NCBI RefSeq assembly: GCF_009377235.1
Contig: NZ_VMNX01000004.1
Location: 1 to 64,000, forward strand
DNA from: Streptomyces acidicola
GTDB lineage: Bacteria > Actinomycetota > Actinomycetes > Streptomycetales > Streptomycetaceae
Length of the DNA: 64,000 nt
Reading direction: 5' to 3'
The notes under the pieces were generated by a model that saw only the letters and a program-made list of their open reading frames with translations, was not told where the DNA came from and ran no database searches. Positions 11,411 through 21,754 of this stretch are shown one piece after another. The first letter of the stretch is position 1. Each line of letters opens with the position of its first letter. Made by a program: the position numbers and the translations under genes.

Positions 11411-12979
11411 CTAGGAGTTCTGCAGTGCCTTCAGCAGGGCTACGCCGTCGGGTACGCCCCAGCCGGTGACGGCGTCGTACCCGGCTGTCACCGGGTAGCC
11501 CATCGCCGGCGGATGGGAGCGGTTGTCATGGCCGGTCGCGATGTCGCGACAGGCGGCCCGCGCGAGAGGACGGCCGTTGGAGCCGCTCCGGTAGAGCAGC
11601 GGCGTGAGGAATCGCTGCTGCTTGCTCGCCGGCAGCGAGGCGTTGACGCGGGCGATCATGGAAGCCCACACTGGGGCGGCTGCGCTGGTGCCGCCGTTGG
11701 GGGCGGGTTTGCCCAGCAGCGTCAGGTCGTACCCGGGTGGGCCGGCGAGTGCCGCCACGTCCGGCACGACCCGCCCCTTGATGCCGTCCGGGTTCAGAGA
11801 GTCCACCTGGATCTGCTGTTGCCACTCAGGGCGTTGGACCAGGGCGCTGACGCCTCCTCCACTCGCGCCGGTGCCGCCGACCGTGTTGGTCCGGTGACCG
11901 GGCGCCTGCCACCAGGCCACCTCCTGGCCGGACGTGTCGATCATCGTGCCGCCGACACCCAGTACGAACGCGCTGACGCTGGGGAAGTCGGCATGCGCCC
12001 GCCCGTCCGCCAGCCCGTCCCCGCATCCGTCGTCGCCGGAGGCGACACAGACCGTGATGCCGAGCTTCGCCAAACCTTCGAGGCGCTTGTCGATCTCGGC
12101 TGGGCCGATCTGTGCCCAGTCGGGATCGTCCTCCGGGAAACCCCAGCTGACGGAGAGGCACACCGGCCTGTCGGCGATGACCTGGTCGAGCAGATCGATC
12201 CACCCCTTCTGGCTGAACGGGGCGAAGTAGACCGAGATCTGGGCCTCCGGGCAGAGACCGGCGATAATCTGCACATCCATCATCACTTCGGGCAGACCCT
12301 CTGCCGCGTCCCGCATCTGCTGGGCCGGCAACTGCCGGAGGGCCTGAAGGCTTCGCGGCGGGTTGTAGCCCAGAGGCACCACGGTGACCTGGGGCGTCGG
12401 CAGGTTGTGCCCGGTGCAGAAGGCCTGCAGATCGTCGTCGAAGTAGCCGCCGGGAAACTCGGCGATGCCGATCTTCTGCCCCTCCCCGTGGCCGGCCGGG
12501 AAGTTGTACTGCTTTTCGAGATCGTCCGGTGTGAACGTTCCCATGAAGCCCGAGCCCTTGGTGACGGCGCGCCGGGCCACCCGCCGCTGATCCAGCCCGA
12601 AGACACCGGTCACGATTCCGTCGAGTTCGGCCGGGATCTTCAGCTCGCCCTCGCGGCCGCGGAACTCGCCCTGCTCGGCACTGCGGTAGATGCCGAGGTC
12701 CGCGTGGAAGGCGGCATTCATGGCGGACACCGAGCCGCTCGCCTCGATGCTGCCGGGCTGCAGCCTGACGTCGTCGACGGTGAGGCCGTACCGCTCGAGT
12801 ACCGTCTTCGTCTTCTCGGCGTCCTCGCGCCGCTCGTTCGGGACCCCCTCGGTGGCCACCTTCCCGCGCAGGGAGACGGTCACTTTCACTGGCGCCTCAG
12901 GGTCCGCGTCCCTCACCCGGGTCGCGTCGGCCTTGGCCGGGCGGGCGCTCCCCACCAGCACCCTGTGCTGTTCACTCAT
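11411..12979 (-). CDS. S53 family peptidase (sedolisin/kumamolisin-like)
   Basis: A 522-aa acid-type serine-carboxyl protease with its activation prodomain. Residues about 10-150 form the pro-kumamolisin domain (VTVSLRGK, DDVRLQPGSIEASGS). The catalytic Glu and Asp are in LPEVMMDVQI (Glu-x3-Asp), the oxyanion Asp follows SVSWGFPEDDPDW, and the nucleophile Ser is in GGTSAAAPVWASM. The C-terminal GYDAVTGWGVP is the calcium-site region. There is no recognisable Sec or Tat signal, although family members usually act outside the cell. The ATG at 12979 sits six bases after GAGGAG; the ATG at 12985 touches that box and is less likely. Confidence 0.92.
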   Translation of the reverse strand: MSEQHRVLVGSARPAKADATRVRDADPEAPVKVTVSLRGKVATEGVPNERREDAEKTKTVLERYGLTVDDVRLQPGSIEASGSVSAMNAAFHADLGIYRSAEQGEFRGREGELKIPAELDGIVTGVFGLDQRRVARRAVTKGSGFMGTFTPDDLEKQYNFPAGHGEGQKIGIAEFPGGYFDDDLQAFCTGHNLPTPQVTVVPLGYNPPRSLQALRQLPAQQMRDAAEGLPEVMMDVQIIAGLCPEAQISVYFAPFSQKGWIDLLDQVIADRPVCLSVSWGFPEDDPDWAQIGPAEIDKRLEGLAKLGITVCVASGDDGCGDGLADGRAHADFPSVSAFVLGVGGTMIDTSGQEVAWWQAPGHRTNTVGGTGASGGGVSALVQRPEWQQQIQVDSLNPDGIKGRVVPDVAALAGPPGYDLTLLGKPAPNGGTSAAAPVWASMIARVNASLPASKQQRFLTPLLYRSGSNGRPLARAACRDIATGHDNRSHPPAMGYPVTAGYDAVTGWGVPDGVALLKALQNS

Positions 12980-13197
12980 CGTCATCTCCTCGGTGCTGAC
13001 AGGTCTCGAGCAAGCCGACGGTGGGGTGCCTGTACCGCACTCGGCAGCCGCGCTCGCATCGCGCTTCGATCCGGACTGGCTCAGCGGAGACCGTTGTCTC
13101 CGGCGGAACCAGCAGGGGCACACCATCCGTATCCGGACGACGCCGGAATCACATGCCGGGAGCGGCACCGGCCACCTGGATAGGGGCATCGCTTGCT

Positions 13198-13922: not shown

Positions 13923-14423
13923 CAGCCGTGCAGGGTTGGCCAGTCGTCCAGATCCTCAATCACACGGTCATCCTGTCACCGGCCGCCCACTGGCCTTGAA
14001 CACGGCCACAATTCCAGGTATTGGCAGGGCCGAGATGTAGCTGACTAGGCGGATTGGCGTGCTGGGGGGCGCGTGGCATGGCAGGCGCGCTGGTATGTGG
14101 TGGAAGTGCGCCGGAGGTACAGGGGGTGTGACGCAGAACACGGCGGGATTGTGGAGAGTTGTTCGCCACGTCCCTCGGCCGGATTACGCCTGGCCAGAGG
14201 GATACGGAGGGTCACTAGCAGCGCTTGTTGAACATTGCACAGTGCTGTCGGCTGGGGACGCTCGGTGATTTTTCTGGGGGAGGGATGAGTGATCGGCCTC
14301 GTGAATCACTTAGGTAGTGGGCAGACCCAACGGGCCATCGGCGCATGCGAGTTGGTGCCGGTTCCCTGCTGACCCTCAATGGAGAGGATCTCTGCCCATG
14401 TCCCCTGTCGACGGGAGGCTGGC
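13923..14423. other. long upstream region of the sigma factor operon
   Basis: About 500 bp without a credible gene. It contains the presumed sigma-operon promoter and an inverted repeat GTGAT...ATCAC near 14290-14310. I cannot assign a -35/-10 pair with confidence. Confidence 0.4.
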
Positions 14424-15035
14424 GTGAGCCACGACGACGCCCTGGAGGGCGACCCGCCTTCGGAGTACGGCCTGGGGCTGTCCCAGTCGATGTTCGTGCC
14501 GCTGGATCTGCCGCTGGACTTCGAGGCCTTCTACCTCGGCCACCAGACGGCCTTCCACGCGTACGCGGAGGTCCACTTCGGCACCCGCGCGGCCGCGGAA
14601 GAGGTCATACACGAGGTCTTCCTGGAGATCCACGCCGGCTGGACGGAGCTGCTGAGCGCGGGCAACCTCGAACAGGGCGCGTGGGCGATCGTGCGGCGGG
14701 CCGTGCACGACCGCCTGGAGCTGGAGGGGCGGGCACCGGCGTTCGTCATCAACGGCCCCATCGCCCAAGCCCTGGCCGCCACCCGGGACAAGCTGCAGAA
14801 GATGGAGTCCACCAGCGGCTTGTACGAGGCAATAGCGGAGCTGCCGAACCGCCAGTTCGAGGTGATCGTGCTGCGCTACCTGCTGGGCTACCCCACCACC
14901 AAGGTCGCCTGGTTCGTGGGCATCGACGAGCGCACCGTCGGCCACCATCTGCGGCGCGGCAAGGAACGTCTGCGGATCAAGCTGGGTCTGCCCGACGACC
15001 GAAAGAAGCCGAAGAAGAAGGGAGAAGGAACGTGA
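14424..15035 (+). CDS. ECF-type RNA polymerase sigma factor
   Basis: A 203-aa sigma-70 family protein of ECF size. Region 2 is seen in FYLGHQTAFHAYAEVHF and AAAEEVIHEVFLEIHAGW, and region 4 in IAELPNRQFEVIVLRYLLGY, where helix-turn-helix residues VAWFVGIDERTVGHHLRRG follow. The tail is lysine-rich. I chose the GTG at 14424 because GGAGG lies seven bases upstream. Its stop overlaps the next gene's start by 3 bases within GTGA, so the downstream protein is translationally coupled and is the likely partner or regulator. No classic zinc anti-sigma gene is present. Confidence 0.87.
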   Translation: MSHDDALEGDPPSEYGLGLSQSMFVPLDLPLDFEAFYLGHQTAFHAYAEVHFGTRAAAEEVIHEVFLEIHAGWTELLSAGNLEQGAWAIVRRAVHDRLELEGRAPAFVINGPIAQALAATRDKLQKMESTSGLYEAIAELPNRQFEVIVLRYLLGYPTTKVAWFVGIDERTVGHHLRRGKERLRIKLGLPDDRKKPKKKGEGT

Positions 15036-15703
15036 CTGCCACCATCGAGGCCCTGCTGGCCGACGCGCAGATTCCCGTCTCCGCCCCGCGGCGCTTCGAC
15101 GTCGCCGCCGCGCTGCGCCGTCTTGCCGCGGACGCATCCCGCCGTACGCCCACCGTGGAGATCGCCCGCGCGGCGCAGGCCGGGCAACGCCTGGGCGTGG
15201 TGTGCCGGTGGGTGCTGAACGAGCCCGACGCCGCCGAACACGTCGACAGGATCGCCGAAGGGCCGGACCGCGGGCCGCTGACCGGGGAGGAAATGGATGT
15301 CGAGGGGGCCCTGGTCTTCGCCTGCCTGCTGTATCTGACCGGGCATCCGGAGTCCGCGCAGTTCTGGTGGCAGCTCGCCGCAGGCGCGGGCAGCCGCGCC
15401 GCCGCCTACTGCCTGCACCTGTACCACCTCTCCATGGGCGAGTCGCGGCGGGCGTGGCACTGGTTCCACCAGCTCACCCACTCCATGGCCGACACCGCCC
15501 CGCCGGACGCCGCGTTCATCGAGGGCCTGGAGCTCTTCGCCCGGTACGTACGTACCAACGGCTCCCGTGCGATAGCCCCGACCGGCCTGCTGGAGTGCGA
15601 GGTCGACCGGCTCGCCGCGCGCACACCGGGCTCTTCCGTGATAGTTGCCCGGCCCGACCGCCAACTGGTCGCTCGTCTACAGGAGTTCGGCGCAGGCCGC
15701 TGA
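15032..15703 (+). CDS. sigma-coupled protein of unknown function
   Basis: A 223-aa protein starting at a GTG that overlaps the sigma stop codon. It is soluble, alpha-helical and alanine-rich. The first part has paired helices (FDVAAALRRLAADAS, TVEIARAAQAGQ). The centre, VEGALVFACLLYLTGHPE with SAQFWWQLAAGAGSRAAAYC, resembles TPR/Sel1-like helical hairpins. No membrane segment and no HxxxCxxC anti-sigma zinc motif are visible. The coupling suggests it is made stoichiometrically with the sigma factor and may hold or stabilise it; that is inference. I do not recognise a named family. Confidence 0.75.
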   Translation: MTATIEALLADAQIPVSAPRRFDVAAALRRLAADASRRTPTVEIARAAQAGQRLGVVCRWVLNEPDAAEHVDRIAEGPDRGPLTGEEMDVEGALVFACLLYLTGHPESAQFWWQLAAGAGSRAAAYCLHLYHLSMGESRRAWHWFHQLTHSMADTAPPDAAFIEGLELFARYVRTNGSRAIAPTGLLECEVDRLAARTPGSSVIVARPDRQLVARLQEFGAGR

Positions 15704-15818
15704 GACGGCATCCACCACACGCAGTGACGGAGAGGAGAGCCGTGTCCAGCCACCGGTTCCGAGGCCATGAGCCGGACAGGGCTCCCCATCACGACGCCAT
15801 CAGAAGGAGACGTCCTCC

Positions 15819-15992
15819 ATGCACCCTAGCCGTCGACCATCGCGGAGGGGCCCGAACCGCCTCGCCGACTGCCGCACGAAGAGCGCCCGCCGTAGGAGCG
15901 CGGCGCTCAACCAGATCCTGCACGGCGCCTGCTACGCCATCGGCACCGGCCTGATCGGACTCGCTTTCCTGTGGGCCGAACGCCTCTGGTGA
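15819..15992 (+). CDS. 57-aa single-TM peptide
   Basis: A short gene after the sigma-partner gene. It starts at an ATG nine bases after AAGGAG and has strong G/C third-position bias. The N-terminal half is very basic (RRPSRRGPNRL, KSARRRSAALNQ), and the C-terminal half is one hydrophobic helix (ACYAIGTGLIGLAFLW) ending in a positive/aromatic cap. It is therefore a tiny membrane peptide with a positively charged cytoplasmic tail. As third gene of the sigma unit it could be a membrane tether or sensor. An overlapping GTG frame at 15742-15954 also has a good ribosome binding site but poorer codon use. Confidence 0.6.
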   Translation: MHPSRRPSRRGPNRLADCRTKSARRRSAALNQILHGACYAIGTGLIGLAFLWAERLW

Positions 15993-16199: not shown

Positions 16200-17465
16200 T
16201 CACCCCGCGATCGAGTCCAACTGCTCAGCCGCGGGCCTCAGAGCCCAGAGGTCACCGCCGGGCGGCGGCTCCAATCGGGCCACGACTGCCCGCGCTTCGG
16301 GGTTTCCGGCGTCCGCCGCCGCGTGCACCACGTCGGTGGCCGCGTACCGGCGGAACTCCAGGTCCGGATGCGGCCAGGGCGCCGCCCCGGAGGCGGCGGG
16401 CAGCAGGTAGTCGACCGCCTTGAACAGGCTCTGCCCGTCGGGCCCTTCGTACGACCACAGGTCCACGCCCACGTGCCGTCCGACGGCGGCCAAGCGTACG
16501 TACGCCACCAGGGCGAAGGTCGAGTAGTGCCAGCTCCGTGTCCGGGTGAGTTCCTGCGGCTGGCCTCCGTCCGGGGCGATCTGCGCGTCGATACGTTTGG
16601 CGCGGGCGTCGAGGACGATCCGGCGCGTCAGCGCCTTGTCGCCGGTCGCATGCGCGAGGGCGGCGAGTTGCATGTCGTAGAAGGTGCCGTGGTTGTTCTT
16701 CGCGGCGCCTTCCTCCTTGCCGAAGGCGCTGTACGCCAGCCAGTCGCGGAAGTCGACGTTCCACGCGTGCATCGCTGAACGGTCCTGACGGGTCCAGCCC
16801 GGTGCCCCCGTGTTGAGGATCGCGATCGCGTCGAGGACGCTGGTGAAGGACTGCGAGAAGTCGATGATGCCGATTGCCCGGCCGTCGTACTTGCAGGGGA
16901 TGAACTGGGCGTGGTTCAGGTTGGGGTTCATCCGGGTGGCCGGGTCGAGGAACCAGGTGCGCAGCACCGATGCGGCCTTCTCCGCGTACTTCCGTTCCCC
17001 GGTGTAGTACCAGGCGAGGGAGAGGTCGTACGTGGAGTCGAAGACCTTCTCCACGTCCTGACGGTCGGTTCCGGTGTCGACCTCCGGGTTGCGCTCGCCG
17101 TCGCGCTGGACGTACGGGCAGCCCCAGGGGTTGTCGGTGGTCGCGGGCTGCGAGGGCCACCAGTACGGGGCCTGGCTGAGGTAGTCGTGGACGTCACCAC
17201 TGGGCGCGGGCCGCGGCTTGTCGACGACGGTCCAGGGGCCCTTGTCGAGCCAGGTGTCGGCGCGCGTGGTCAACTGCTGGAGCGTACGTCGTAGTCGGTG
17301 ATCGCCGCGGTCGAGCCGGAGCTTCGTCTGCTGGAGCCGCACGCCGTCGAGGACCGTCGTCTTGGGGACCCTCGGCGCCGGGTGGGCCGAGGCGGTGGGG
17401 AGGAGGACCGCCGTGAAGGTGGCCACCGCCACCAGCAGCGCGACCAATCGAGGTCTTGCACTCAT
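16200..17465 (-). CDS. secreted alginate lyase family protein
   Basis: A 421-aa exported polysaccharide lyase of the alpha/alpha-toroid alginate-lyase superfamily (PL5/PL38-like). The signal peptide is RPRLVALLVAVATFTAVLLP ending in SAHA-type residues. Family features include QAPYWWPSQ early, a helical barrel (AWYYTGERKYAEKAA), the catalytic-region NNHGTFYDMQ with Asn-Asn-His and Tyr, and a later SWHYSTFAL. Beta-elimination of uronic-acid polymers is the known chemistry; alginate versus glucuronan cannot be decided here. ATG 17465 has GGAG upstream; a TTG four codons earlier is unlikely. Confidence 0.87.
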   Translation of the reverse strand: MSARPRLVALLVAVATFTAVLLPTASAHPAPRVPKTTVLDGVRLQQTKLRLDRGDHRLRRTLQQLTTRADTWLDKGPWTVVDKPRPAPSGDVHDYLSQAPYWWPSQPATTDNPWGCPYVQRDGERNPEVDTGTDRQDVEKVFDSTYDLSLAWYYTGERKYAEKAASVLRTWFLDPATRMNPNLNHAQFIPCKYDGRAIGIIDFSQSFTSVLDAIAILNTGAPGWTRQDRSAMHAWNVDFRDWLAYSAFGKEEGAAKNNHGTFYDMQLAALAHATGDKALTRRIVLDARAKRIDAQIAPDGGQPQELTRTRSWHYSTFALVAYVRLAAVGRHVGVDLWSYEGPDGQSLFKAVDYLLPAASGAAPWPHPDLEFRRYAATDVVHAAADAGNPEARAVVARLEPPPGGDLWALRPAAEQLDSIAG

Positions 17466-17830
17466 CAAGCTCTCCAATCATCTATGTGAACGGAGTTCAT
17501 GAGAAAGACCGCGTGAGCGTAGGGGCAGCTGATTGCCGTTGCAATGCATCTGGCAGAAGTTCATGGATGCGTTGGTTGGTTACGTAGGTGGTAAACCGGC
17601 GCACGGAGGCACTCAGTAGCGCCCATCGAGGCCGCGCACGAGTGGGACTTTCGGGCTTCCCCGTCAGGAAGGCAGCGATCGTCCTCTTTGGGTGAGAGAC
17701 CGGCCGGACGGGCTGTGAAGCGACGAGAACTTCGCCGAACGGCACCCAGCCTTCCGCCCGCCCGGTTTGCCACCGTCTGTGTGCTGCTACATCGCAGTCG
17801 TACCGCCCGGGCCGCCGGCCCGCGCGCTGG
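17466..17830. other. intergenic region between lyase and CHAT gene
   Basis: About 365 bp. The lyase promoter should lie in the first 100 bp. The open frames in the rest have no start signal or recognisable sequence, so I see no gene. A degraded fragment cannot be excluded. Confidence 0.4.
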
Positions 17831-20800
17831 TCAGGGACCGGTGTGAAGGTATGGCGCCCACAGAGTGGGAGCCTCGGGGCGGGCGTCTCGGAGCCTGCGG
17901 ACCGCCTGGCGGAGGGCAGAGGCCGCGTGGAGTGTTTCATCGGTGGTGCGCGGAGTTGCTTGGAGTGCTCGATAGAAGTCCCTTGCGACCTGGGGAGCCC
18001 GCAGATCGCTGATGGACCACTGTGTCGCGATCACATGCCGGAAGCCGGCGATGTGGAGCCCGCCGGCCAGGTGGGCGAACTCGTCCGCCAGGCGGGCGAC
18101 TCCGCTGGCTGTTTCGCATGCGGAGAGGAAGGCGAGTTCCGCCGTGGTCAGTCGGAGTGCGGTCACCTCACGCAAACTGATCACGTGGTCCGTGCAGTGC
18201 AATGCGGCACCGACGAGGGAGTACTGCGATCCGTGACCGGCGAAGTGCAGCCAGCTGTGGGAAAGCAACTGTTGCAGGACGGTGTCACGAGTCGCCTCAG
18301 GACCGAGGACGGCTGTCATCGTGGGGAACTCCTCGCGCAGGGAGCCGATTTCCGATACAGCGTGACGCAGCTCGGTCATTCCTGGAGCGCTGGGCACGGC
18401 GACGCCCAACAGTTCAGTCGTGACGGAGGTTGGGCGACTGTCGGCCTCCAAGAGTGCGCGAAGCGTGGGCGCGTAGGAGCAGATGGCGCGGTCGAGCAGG
18501 TTGCTGTTCGGGGTAGGGGACGGCGTGTCCGGCTCGTCGTCCGGTGCGGCGTAGAGACCTGCGGCGTGCAGGGGGAGCAGAGTCAGGGCGCCGGTGGGGC
18601 ACCACCACAGGCGAGGTTCCTGGCCCTCCGCCGGCTGGGCAGGCAGGTCCAGCTTGGTCAGGACCGGGGCTGTGATGTCGTTCCAGAGCCAGGCGAGAAT
18701 GGACCGGAGGATGTTATTCCGCTCTTGTGGGGCCGTCGTCTCGGGCCCACGCAACGTGGTGATCAGCTCTCGCGCCCGGCCGTTGACCACAGGGCGGGAG
18801 ATCCGCTCCAAGCGGACGAGGAGAGGGGACTCTTCCGCGTCGGCGGTCACCAGCAGGGCGTCGCAGCGGTAACGGGCGATGTTGACGATGACGACCGGAC
18901 CGTTGCGCGCCGCTTCACGGAGGCGGGCAAAGGGGCGCGGACGGAGAAAGTCCGGCACCAGGGTCCTGGCCCGCTCCAGGAGGCGGTCCCATTCGGCCGC
19001 CGCTTCCCGACGACGCTGGGACTCCACTGCCGCCTGGCCCGCCGAGACGTCACGCACCTCTCCACCGGCTCCGGCGGCGCCCACTGAGTCGAGTCGGCGC
19101 CGGACTCCGTCGACGGCCCGTGCCAGGTCATCGTCCAGGGCTCGGAGTTCGTCCAGGTCCGTACGAGCATCGAAAGCCTGCGCCAGCAGGACACCACGTC
19201 CCTGTTCCAGGAGCTCCACGGCCCGTGCGAGGTCCCCACGCTCGATGGCGACAGCGGCGGCGTCCGATGCGAGGCCGTTGGCCATGGACAGAAAGTGCTC
19301 GCGGTCTTCGCGTTCCAGACCGTGCCAGGCCGCCTGGGGCAGCAGCTCGATGGCGTACTCGTAGCCCCGCTGCGCCTCCTCCCACCGCTCGTCCGCCGAG
19401 GCCACCTCGCCCCAACTCCGTGCCGCACGGAGTCGTACGCTCAGCTGGCCCGTGGGGAGCTGGGCGGCTTCCCGGAAGGCGTCGATCGTCTCGGTGACGC
19501 GCCGCGCGTCGTGGAGGACATCCCCGAGGATCACCAGACACCTGGCACGGCTCTCGTGATCGGCAGGGCATCGTGCGACGGAGACACGGCCCACGCGTAC
19601 GGCCTCGTCGAGATCGCTGTCCTGACCCGTGTGCTGGTACCTCTGATGCAGCATCCCGCTGAGGTTGGAGAGGAACTTCGCCTGGTCGGGGTGGTCGTCG
19701 GAGGCCTCGTCGATGGCTTCGCGGATGGCCCGGATCGCGGCTTCCAGATCGTCATGGTTCTGCGATTCCGAGAAGTGGGCACGGATGACGATCGCGAGAT
19801 TGCACAGGTTCATCGGTCGCCGATGCGACCGTCGCGGTGTCGCTTCGACCGCGAGCCGCGCTGTTTCGACGGCCTTGTCGAGATCATCGCGCTGCCCGTG
19901 GCGGCGGTAGGAGGTTCCCAGGGCGAGGCTGAGGTTCGCGAGGTACCGATCCTGGTGCGGGTCACCGGCCCGCACGGTTCGTACGGCCTCCGCGCAGACG
20001 TCGATCGAGGCCGTCAGGTCCGCCGCGTCCCCGGTGTGTTCGAAGCGGGTTCTCAGCGAGTTGCCGAGTCCGCTGAGGTGCATTGCCCGTTGCGTGGCGG
20101 AGAGCCCGCCGGATCGCGTCGCCGCGCGTTTGGTGTCGATGGCCGCGTGCAGATCGTCGAGCGCGCCGCCATGCTCGTAGCGCGCCTGGAGGGCGCTGCC
20201 CAGGTTGTTCAGCGCGATGGCCCTGTCACGTCGGCCCAGCCCGGTGCCCCGCGCGCTTTCGCGTGCGAAGTCGACCGCGGCTGTGAAGTCGGCCCCGGCT
20301 CCGGTGTGCTGGGCACGAACCCGCAGTACGCCACCGACCGCGTTGACGACCAGCGGGCGGTACGGCGCGCTCGCGGGGGTGTCCCGCTCCGCCCGCAGAG
20401 CCGCCGCCACCGCGGCTTCCAGGTCGGCGGCGTCAGTGCGGTCCTCGAAGCGGCAGCGCAGGATCTCGCTGAGGGCCGACCGCAGGAGGGAGATCGCGTC
20501 GCTGCCCTCGGCGGAGAGGGAGATGCCTCGCCGTACGACGTCCGCCGCCTCGTCCAGGTCCCTTGCTTCCGCGATGTGTTCGTCGTAGAGCGTGTAAAGG
20601 GCCATCCCCTGAGCGAGCAGCATCCTGGCGAGGGCCGGTGACGAGTCCGGCAGGCCGCGGGCTGCGAGACACAACAGGTCCACGGCGGTGCGGAGGTCGC
20701 GGGCGTCGTTCGTCCGATGGTGGCGGAGCATGAGGCAGATGGCGAGGTCCTCGTGCGTGGAGTTGTGGCGGTCGTGCTGGGGGTACTCCGCGAGAAAGCT

Positions 20801-21754
20801 CTCGTAGCAGGCGACCGCCTCGTCGAGGTTCGCCTGATCGTCGGTGAGTTCACCGCGTCGGCGCAATCCACCGGCGAGGCGGAGGAGATGGTCGGCGCGC
20901 TCCGGGTCGTTCGGGTCGCCCTGTTCCATGGCGTGCCGCGCGGACTCGATCAGGTCATCGAGGTCGGCGCTGACCACAGCGCTCTCCTCCTCCACCGACT
21001 GGACCCTGAGCCACAGCCCCTTGGCCAACCCTCCCCAGGCCACGGCGCGTAACGGAGCGCCCGGCTGGGACAATGCGACGGCGCTGCGGGCCATGTCGAT
21101 CGACTCGTCGAGAAGGGTGATGGCGTGCGTTTCCCGGTACGTCTCCCGCAGGAGCTCCCCGAGGTGAAAGCGGGTGAGGGCACCGCTCGGATGGCCCGGG
21201 GGCGTGTCCGCCACGGCTTCGCGCGTGACGTCGAGGGCTTCCCGGAGATGCGCGGGGGCGCCGGTACGTTCGTGCCTGTGCATGAGCATCTGGGAGAGGT
21301 TGTTACGGCGGAGGGGGCGGCGTTCGTGCCCTGGGGGAGTGGCGGCAATGCTGCGGCGCCCCGCGGCGATACCCGCTTCCAGGTCGGGCAGCCGGTGGCT
21401 TGTCCGGAAGCGCTCCCAGTGAGCCAGCGCGAGATTGGACAGCTGCTCGTCAAGGAACTTGTCGCCGAACGCCTCGGTCTCCCTCACCGCGGTCGCGCTC
21501 ACCTCGACCGCCTGGTCGAGCGCGGCGTGGTCTCCGGTCAGCTGAAACCATCCACGCAGAGCCCGGCCCAGCTCCGTGAGGCAGACCGGCCGGAAGGGGG
21601 AGGCGGGTGGAAGTGCCTCGACGAGGACGGACCACAGCCGTAAGGAGGTGCGCAGGGCGTCGGGGTCGCCCAGTCCCTGCCATTTCTCAAAGCTCGCCAC
21701 CGCCTCCTCGACCATCTGCTGTGCCGTCGCCCGGTCGCCCTGCGGGTGTGCCAT
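17831..21754 (-). CDS. TPR-CHAT (caspase-like) protease, CATRA-type conflict system
   Basis: A 1307-aa protein. Roughly residues 1-850 are a long run of helical TPR-like repeats; several units share an AIxxxRxAxxxTPxxHPxR-like pattern (for example TRSGGLSATQRAMHLSGLGN). The C-terminal CHAT domain carries the caspase-type dyad His1174 in LHFAGHGSQ and Cys1213 in FLSACETA, with GFRHVIATQW after it. CHAT proteases are separase-like cysteine peptidases, and the TPR region usually senses or recruits. No signal peptide or membrane segment is present. It is divergent, across 98 bp, from a small protein and a four-TM protein, which together match the described CATRA arrangement. I infer that the TPR part detects a trigger and the protease activates a partner. 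Confidence 0.9.
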   Translation of the reverse strand: MAHPQGDRATAQQMVEEAVASFEKWQGLGDPDALRTSLRLWSVLVEALPPASPFRPVCLTELGRALRGWFQLTGDHAALDQAVEVSATAVRETEAFGDKFLDEQLSNLALAHWERFRTSHRLPDLEAGIAAGRRSIAATPPGHERRPLRRNNLSQMLMHRHERTGAPAHLREALDVTREAVADTPPGHPSGALTRFHLGELLRETYRETHAITLLDESIDMARSAVALSQPGAPLRAVAWGGLAKGLWLRVQSVEEESAVVSADLDDLIESARHAMEQGDPNDPERADHLLRLAGGLRRRGELTDDQANLDEAVACYESFLAEYPQHDRHNSTHEDLAICLMLRHHRTNDARDLRTAVDLLCLAARGLPDSSPALARMLLAQGMALYTLYDEHIAEARDLDEAADVVRRGISLSAEGSDAISLLRSALSEILRCRFEDRTDAADLEAAVAAALRAERDTPASAPYRPLVVNAVGGVLRVRAQHTGAGADFTAAVDFARESARGTGLGRRDRAIALNNLGSALQARYEHGGALDDLHAAIDTKRAATRSGGLSATQRAMHLSGLGNSLRTRFEHTGDAADLTASIDVCAEAVRTVRAGDPHQDRYLANLSLALGTSYRRHGQRDDLDKAVETARLAVEATPRRSHRRPMNLCNLAIVIRAHFSESQNHDDLEAAIRAIREAIDEASDDHPDQAKFLSNLSGMLHQRYQHTGQDSDLDEAVRVGRVSVARCPADHESRARCLVILGDVLHDARRVTETIDAFREAAQLPTGQLSVRLRAARSWGEVASADERWEEAQRGYEYAIELLPQAAWHGLEREDREHFLSMANGLASDAAAVAIERGDLARAVELLEQGRGVLLAQAFDARTDLDELRALDDDLARAVDGVRRRLDSVGAAGAGGEVRDVSAGQAAVESQRRREAAAEWDRLLERARTLVPDFLRPRPFARLREAARNGPVVIVNIARYRCDALLVTADAEESPLLVRLERISRPVVNGRARELITTLRGPETTAPQERNNILRSILAWLWNDITAPVLTKLDLPAQPAEGQEPRLWWCPTGALTLLPLHAAGLYAAPDDEPDTPSPTPNSNLLDRAICSYAPTLRALLEADSRPTSVTTELLGVAVPSAPGMTELRHAVSEIGSLREEFPTMTAVLGPEATRDTVLQQLLSHSWLHFAGHGSQYSLVGAALHCTDHVISLREVTALRLTTAELAFLSACETASGVARLADEFAHLAGGLHIAGFRHVIATQWSISDLRAPQVARDFYRALQATPRTTDETLHAASALRQAVRRLRDARPEAPTLWAPYLHTGP

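Follow-up and report, generated by a model that had tools for sequence, protein, structure and literature searches.

The operon described here lies in a 64,000-nucleotide stretch of the Streptomyces acidicola genome (10.25 Mb in 543 contigs), which we refer to as the window. It comprises three consecutive genes that encode an ECF-like sigma factor, a Sel1-like helical partner protein and a small basic membrane peptide (the micro-protein), together with a conserved upstream region and a hairpin between the partner and micro-protein genes (Table 1). S. bluensis is the nearest named relative by partner match, its partner being 97% identical to that of the window. Elsewhere in the window, the minus strand carries genes for a Pro-kumamolisin-type serine peptidase assigned by Pfam (11411-13189), an alginate lyase family protein (16200-17477; Pfam 5.5e-95) and a 1307-aa frame with a TPR/CHAT-type look by eye (17831-21754). 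Among 12 loci compared, the alginate lyase gene lies near the operon in the S. bluensis locus only. A conserved-neighbor search of 10 close loci grouped sigma genes from all ten, partner genes from five (the simple gene caller overlooked the partner in the other loci) and antisense frames over the operon from four; the remaining groups were common to two loci, and no gene outside the operon was common to more than two of the ten.

Table 1. Features of the operon and its control regions, in window coordinates
Feature	Position	Strand	Remarks
Near-palindromic block GTGTGACGCAGAACAC	14126..14141	+	in 11 aligned upstream regions, with one letter different in L049
Conserved block GTCACTAGCAGCGCTTGTTGA	14211..14231	+	in 9 of 11 aligned upstream regions; absent from L050 and L053
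Candidate operon promoter RTGMGTG-N16-RCTTAGSTRG	14285..14317	+	
ECF-like sigma factor, 203 aa, GTG start	14424..15035	+	family scores, alignment, model
Sel1-like helical partner, 223 aa, GTG start within the sigma stop (GTGA)	15032..15703	+	
Conserved hairpin	15735..15786	+	arms 15735-15741 and 15780-15786; 1 of 7 pairs mismatched in the window
Basic single-TM micro-protein, 57 aa, type A	15819..15992	+	

The encoded proteins

The window sigma factor scores 49.9 bits against the NCBIfam ECF superfamily model TIGR02937 over residues 33-187, above the cut-off of 42.9. Pfam matches its region 4 strongly (1.9e-11) and its region 2 weakly (Sigma70_r2, 14.8 bits against a cut-off of 24), and the protein stands outside the set of 56 region 2 matches found in the host genome. 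Across 34 members of the sigma family, region 4 (Sigma70_r4_2) is recognized in 33 and Pfam region 2 in four (E ≤ 0.01); sigma2 has thus diverged in this family, and some of the proteins in it may lack sigma factor function. The predicted structure of the window protein is of fair quality (mean pLDDT 74.7, with residues 31-100 and 111-190 in blocks of 72 to 92), and its best structural matches are ECF sigma factors, several of them complexed with anti-sigma factors (Foldseek, 5wuq, 7.5e-5). The predicted model retains both sigma domains, aligning to ECF sigma factors across residues 26-191, sigma2 structures included. VIA-align superpositions on the N-terminal fragment of SigR (1h3l; Z 10.1, rmsd 3.2, 74 aligned) and on region 4 of SigD (3vfz; Z 9.5, rmsd 2.1, 62 aligned) gave Z values below about 13, which are common for helical folds and may mean little there, and the rmsd was high where both sigma domains were aligned together. 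Because of this weakness of the Z values, we let the TIGR02937 family scores outweigh the model alignments. An alternative in-frame ATG at 14379 would yield a 218-aa sigma factor; GTG 14424 is preferred as the start because the S. bluensis relative (L045) shows a one-base gap in the alignment between the two codons. In one further locus (L025) the sigma gene has an in-frame stop.

The partner had been described in the earlier note as a TPR/Sel1-like helical protein lacking both an anti-sigma zinc motif and a membrane helix. Both absences are borne out. The only cysteines of the window partner, as read from its sequence, are at positions 58, 98, 127 and 189, so that it has no zinc-type Cys/His cluster, and hydropathy analysis finds no TM stretch in the partners of the micro-protein branch (see below), the window partner included. 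The resemblance to repeat proteins stands in part. A core at residues ~92-144, common to 96 aligned partners, shows sequence similarity to a 652-aa protein of the host genome (4.4e-7; 9.1e-14 with the family profile) that has a PF08238 Sel1 match above the Pfam cut-off, and this similarity justifies the term Sel1-like. When searched directly, on the other hand, the Sel1 and TPR models in Pfam matched none of 60 partner members at E ≤ 0.1, and the window partner gave one weak ANAPC3 match (0.13). Within the core, L100 is present in all 96 rows and A109, W112, L128, A141 and W144 in 98%, with the aromatic residues F111, W112, W113 and W144 conserved in 94-98% (the alignment is without L011-L014, L055, L056, L068, L093, L099, L102 and L103). 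The window partner stays below the cut-off of every Pfam and NCBIfam family, with a weak NCBIfam match to the Frankia-40 domain (E 0.6), and PHROGs gives nothing at E ≤ 0.1; the partner profile has no match at E ≤ 1 among PDB sequences. An AlphaFold model based on 11 close sequences is of poor quality (mean pLDDT 48.4) and gives no more than a hint of an arrangement of all-helical hairpins.

The micro-gene starts at ATG 15819 with AAGGAG ahead of it, and its product has 10 Arg/Lys in residues 1-32 followed by a single hydrophobic stretch at residues ~33-52, in agreement with the earlier description of a basic single-TM protein with a good ribosome binding site. Related peptides, which we call type A, share the motif RGACYGxGTGxxGL, of which the window version is HGACYAIGTG.

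Distribution of the sigma-partner pair and of the micro-protein

We evaluated the pairing of sigma factor and partner in 103 partner loci, a non-random set consisting of the top of the family match list, sixty loci fetched from the same list and the twelve nearest-match loci, from which four windows containing one Sel1 protein (L011-L014) were excluded. A sigma gene lies upstream of the partner on the same strand in 99 of the 103; a script recognized it in 93, and profile hits added L009, L026, L040, L047, L050 and L115. Two of the four loci without it are truncated where their contig stops (L055 and L112), and the other two look decayed (L056 and L068). The partner is thus not a protein found mostly without sigma factors, the outcome against which the earlier note had staked its proposal. 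The overlap also recurs: in the window, sigma and partner share the 4-bp GTGA, as had been noted, and are read in different frames, and a -4 overlap of sigma stop and partner start is present in 68 of 93 scored loci, with shifted frames and large gaps in L033 and L099.

At E ≤ 0.001, a search for the partner matches 132 of 150 genomes of the family, weak matches including Sel1-repeat proteins other than partners; at E ≤ 1e-10, by hand count, it matches 91 of the 150, representing 10 of 17 genera. A sample of 296 genomes from the phylum, with 9 candidates scored per genome, contained 9 genomes matching the partner profile, all from the genus of the window; in two of these (G009 and G024) the only matches fall within long frames of Sel1 type, leaving 7 partners. 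In the genomes sampled, the sigma-partner operon is restricted to Streptomycetaceae.

The micro-protein has a narrower distribution. The earlier note had proposed a search for recurrence of all three genes; the sigma-partner pair recurs in nearly all of the set, whereas the micro-gene is conserved in a single monophyletic branch of the partner tree (25 tips, local support 0.84), in which it is intact in 18 tips, a remnant in three (L022, L046 and L053) and not found in four (L020, L024, L027 and L052). Since L016 and L049 are one place seen twice, with identical peptides and contigs of equal length, the count by distinct places is 17 of 24. Sigma and partner frames are open in all seven tips in which the micro-gene is broken or not found. 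The micro-gene usually begins 88-123 bases past the partner stop (184 or more in L018, L025 and L028) and is preceded by a ribosome site in most branch loci; its profile matched 26 of 116 loci searched, nearly all of them within the branch. The proportion of synonymous changes exceeds that of non-synonymous changes in 19 of the 20 closest pairs, which are mutually dependent, and the twentieth pair is the same place twice, with both proportions zero. The micro-protein is a true gene whose frame is under selection in this one branch.

Similar peptides also occur away from the operon. The type A profile finds 23 places in 21 of 150 genomes: 13 are behind a partner (one decayed; the partner of L139 has no position in the tree), another is an additional copy adjacent to a sigma-partner-micro operon, and 9 have no family sigma or partner within ~4 kb, apart from a weak sigma match in L140. 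In two of these nine the matched stretch is interrupted by an in-frame stop. By eye, among the solo type A loci (L140-L147 and L149), L144 lies near a phage-type integrase and L145 downstream of an XRE-like regulator. A second peptide, type B, which differs from type A by eye, is encoded after partners that fall outside the branch; there are 9 such loci, in one of which a frameshift leads to read-through. It was found at 44 places in 32 genomes; of the 30 places viewed, 8 follow a partner and the other 22 lack one within 1.5 kb. The loci L159-L181, except L168, hold a recurrent small membrane peptide of the Streptomyces family that ends in approximately ARxPxRRRDARxTLxxLLRRR, with no sigma-partner genes within 1.5 kb. 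Tiny TM peptides have probably joined sigma-partner operons at least twice, and they are neither required by the pair nor exclusive to it.

Noncoding elements of the operon

Approximately 300 bases upstream of the sigma gene are conserved in the 11 closest loci. In the host genome, the near-palindromic block has no match other than its own site at up to 1 mismatch, and the second block has one exact match plus another with 3 mismatches, compared with 5 for the control. The bipartite element closest to the sigma gene is a candidate operon promoter tied to the window sigma factor by association. At least 13 of its 15 letters are present in 17 of 98 sigma upstream regions compared with 1 of 232 random stretches, a count that is partly circular because the scoring letters were derived from the same sequences. 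Sixteen of the 17 belong to the micro-protein branch and the other is L041, while 81 of the 98 regions score below 13/15; L021-L024 keep the element at 48-59% sigma identity. The sole exact match to it in the host genome is at the operon, and three others occur at 2 mismatches, against 24 control matches. A search of 12 genomes that allowed at most 1 mismatch gave 9 sites, 7 of them at sigma-partner operons (control matches, 9), and 5 of the 12 genomes had no operon site. The leader that follows (14318-14424) is conserved and contains complementary CCAAC and GTTGG by eye, possibly an RNA structure. Upstream of the sigma genes of another sigma branch (L042, L044, L058, L060, L063 and L090), there seems by eye to be a different recurring stretch, GAGTAGTCATAC..TTACG.

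The hairpin has a 7-bp outer stem in which 91.4% of 105 cells are paired across 15 sequences, the same 15 branch sequences from which the stem was derived. There are 11 double-change cells, located at 2 pairs. Pairing, double-change cells and covariation score each reach values attained by 0 of 500 shuffles, and slid versions of the stem score lower; two further measures do not rise above the shuffles, namely the number of pairs with a double change (284/500) and further pair types (500/500). The hairpin alignment is without L018, L020, L024, L025, L027, L028, L029, L052 and L053, and in L029, L052 and L053 the stem is not clearly visible. An Rfam search returned a chance match only (mir-341, E 0.21).

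Proposed regulation of the sigma factor and alternative readings

The interpretation that we favor, and in which we place middling confidence, is that the locus is a self-contained sigma operon, probably autoregulated, with a dedicated soluble Sel1-like partner, the probable inhibitor, and an optional membrane peptide in one branch. The ECF-like sigma factor would be translated together with the partner, whose most likely role is to regulate it, probably by inhibition, through direct binding; the constancy of the pair across a large, diverged family suggests that the partner acts on the sigma factor itself. The bipartite element is most likely where the sigma factor initiates transcription of its operon, which would be the chief target of this autoregulation. 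In one branch, the basic single-TM micro-protein would have been added behind the hairpin as an optional membrane accessory, serving either as a membrane-located modulator of the sigma/partner complex or as an output of the operon. The promoter-like element at the operon suggests autoregulation, in which case the peptide would be a feedback accessory or an output.

Several known systems resemble parts of this arrangement. RsrA is a zinc-binding anti-sigma factor, whereas the window partner lacks a zinc motif and is Sel1-like. In gene order, sigR-rsrA and other Streptomyces sigma/anti-sigma operons are similar to the window, with an ECF sigma gene followed by that of its regulator and overlapping stop and start codons, which are described as frequent in such operons (PMC5472188). 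Overlapping starts are nevertheless common for any two genes made together, and this weakens the overlap as support. The Bacillus subtilis sigM-yhdL-yhdK operon is likewise a three-gene ECF operon, reported to be autoregulated and to require a second protein for full inhibition (PMC6827917). YhdL and YhdK are both membrane proteins, whereas the window partner looks soluble; the third window gene encodes a single-TM peptide, which some relatives have lost and which contains the sole hydrophobic stretch of partner and micro-protein combined. A Streptomyces ECF sigma factor with a Pfam-less partner is already known, since SigG1 of Streptomyces tsukubaensis (ECF56) has a downstream partner without Pfam domains, RsfG, reported to bind it in two-hybrid and pull-down experiments (PMC7730460); we liken the two systems by description, and SigG1 has a SnoaL_2 extension that the window sigma factor lacks. 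Soluble anti-sigma factors are a recognized kind, and ECF286 and ECF292 are described as adjoining soluble predicted anti-sigma factors (PMC8999054). Their partners are of the Asp23 family, whereas 60 partner members gave no Asp23 match at E ≤ 0.1. The window partner has no known anti-sigma domain, which counts against the anti-sigma reading.

There is a modest chance that the micro-protein, rather than regulating the sigma factor, is what the operon puts out: a peptide that acts on membranes and is produced while the sigma factor is active. Consistent with this are the solo micro-protein copies elsewhere, the conserved hairpin that sets the micro-gene apart from the regulators, as for a separately tuned gene, and the single exact copy of the promoter-like element at the operon itself. 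Most examined sigma-partner loci outside the branch, however, show no such peptide gene and would therefore lack the output. We also know of no toxicity or other activity of the micro-protein, and count this against its being an output.

The main rival to inhibition by the partner, which we consider unlikely, is that the partner is a positive co-factor required by the sigma factor. ECF42 sigma factors provide the precedent, as they are likewise coupled to a helical-repeat module, a TPR extension reported to be necessary for activity (PMC8999054, PMC7730460); in ECF42 the TPR is fused to the sigma factor, whereas in the window the sigma frame ends in its own stop and the partner is a separate chain. 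The partner core is indeed Sel1/TPR-like, and a helper is plausible because sigma2 is so poorly recognized in the family (4 of 34 members). In contrast, no sigma-partner fusion was noticed in passing among the loci, and the overlapping order of sigma gene then regulator gene is the one described for anti-sigma factors (PMC5472188). The partner is likelier to be an inhibitor than a positive co-factor.

It is distinctly unlikely that the partner is a soluble inhibitor held at the membrane, and the sigma factor with it, by the micro-protein acting as a tether. The strongly basic N-terminus and one TM stretch of the peptide would suit such a role, as would its conserved position downstream in 18 of 25 branch tips, and in sigM-yhdL-yhdK a second membrane protein is reported to be required for full anti-sigma activity (PMC6827917). 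The loss of the peptide in seven tips that keep open sigma and partner frames nevertheless argues against an essential tether, and similar peptides stand alone elsewhere. An apparent fusion of partner and TM peptide in L039, considered as proof of tethering, was rejected, as comparison with L035 shows it to be a frameshift, with the partner stop in the other frame. Least probable of all is that the window protein binds DNA and resembles a sigma factor without functioning as one any longer. In favor of this, Pfam recognizes region 2 in so few members, and one plasmid relative (H8) carries the annotation sigma factor-like HTH protein; against it, the window protein scores above the ECF superfamily cut-off across both regions, and its predicted structure can be aligned with those of ECF sigma factors.

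Beyond the autoregulated operon with a probable inhibitor, we tentatively raise a broader proposal, possible though on balance doubtful: that these partners are cytoplasmic sigma regulators of a new class, a Sel1-like family specific to Streptomycetaceae and controlling a large and diverged ECF-like sigma family in closed-loop operons, to which tiny single-TM peptides of types A and B were recruited more than once as accessories at the membrane, coupling the switch to the envelope. If confirmed, the large sigma-partner family would be a new regulator class. A regulator that has no known domain is difficult to detect, and the host genome alone has 56 sigma region 2 matches. We met no Sel1-like family of sigma partners in the open literature, and the sigma factor may already be a numbered group in the main ECF classification.

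On the same condition, the two- or three-gene unit would be a simple and testable one, and it is also found on plasmids. Partner matches occur in 112 plasmid records, all from Streptomyces, Kitasatospora or Embleya, in which the partner is listed merely as a 'hypothetical protein', and in no phage record. No micro-protein was seen at a Streptomyces globisporus plasmid locus (L211). The search of plasmids with the micro-protein returned 1 record, probably because of the BLAST low-complexity filter. In the incomplete PLSDB table, the micro-frame of the S. aurantiacus plasmid NZ_CP114282.1 (L212) has no gene. The operon on that plasmid includes the micro-protein and is flanked by two transposase genes.
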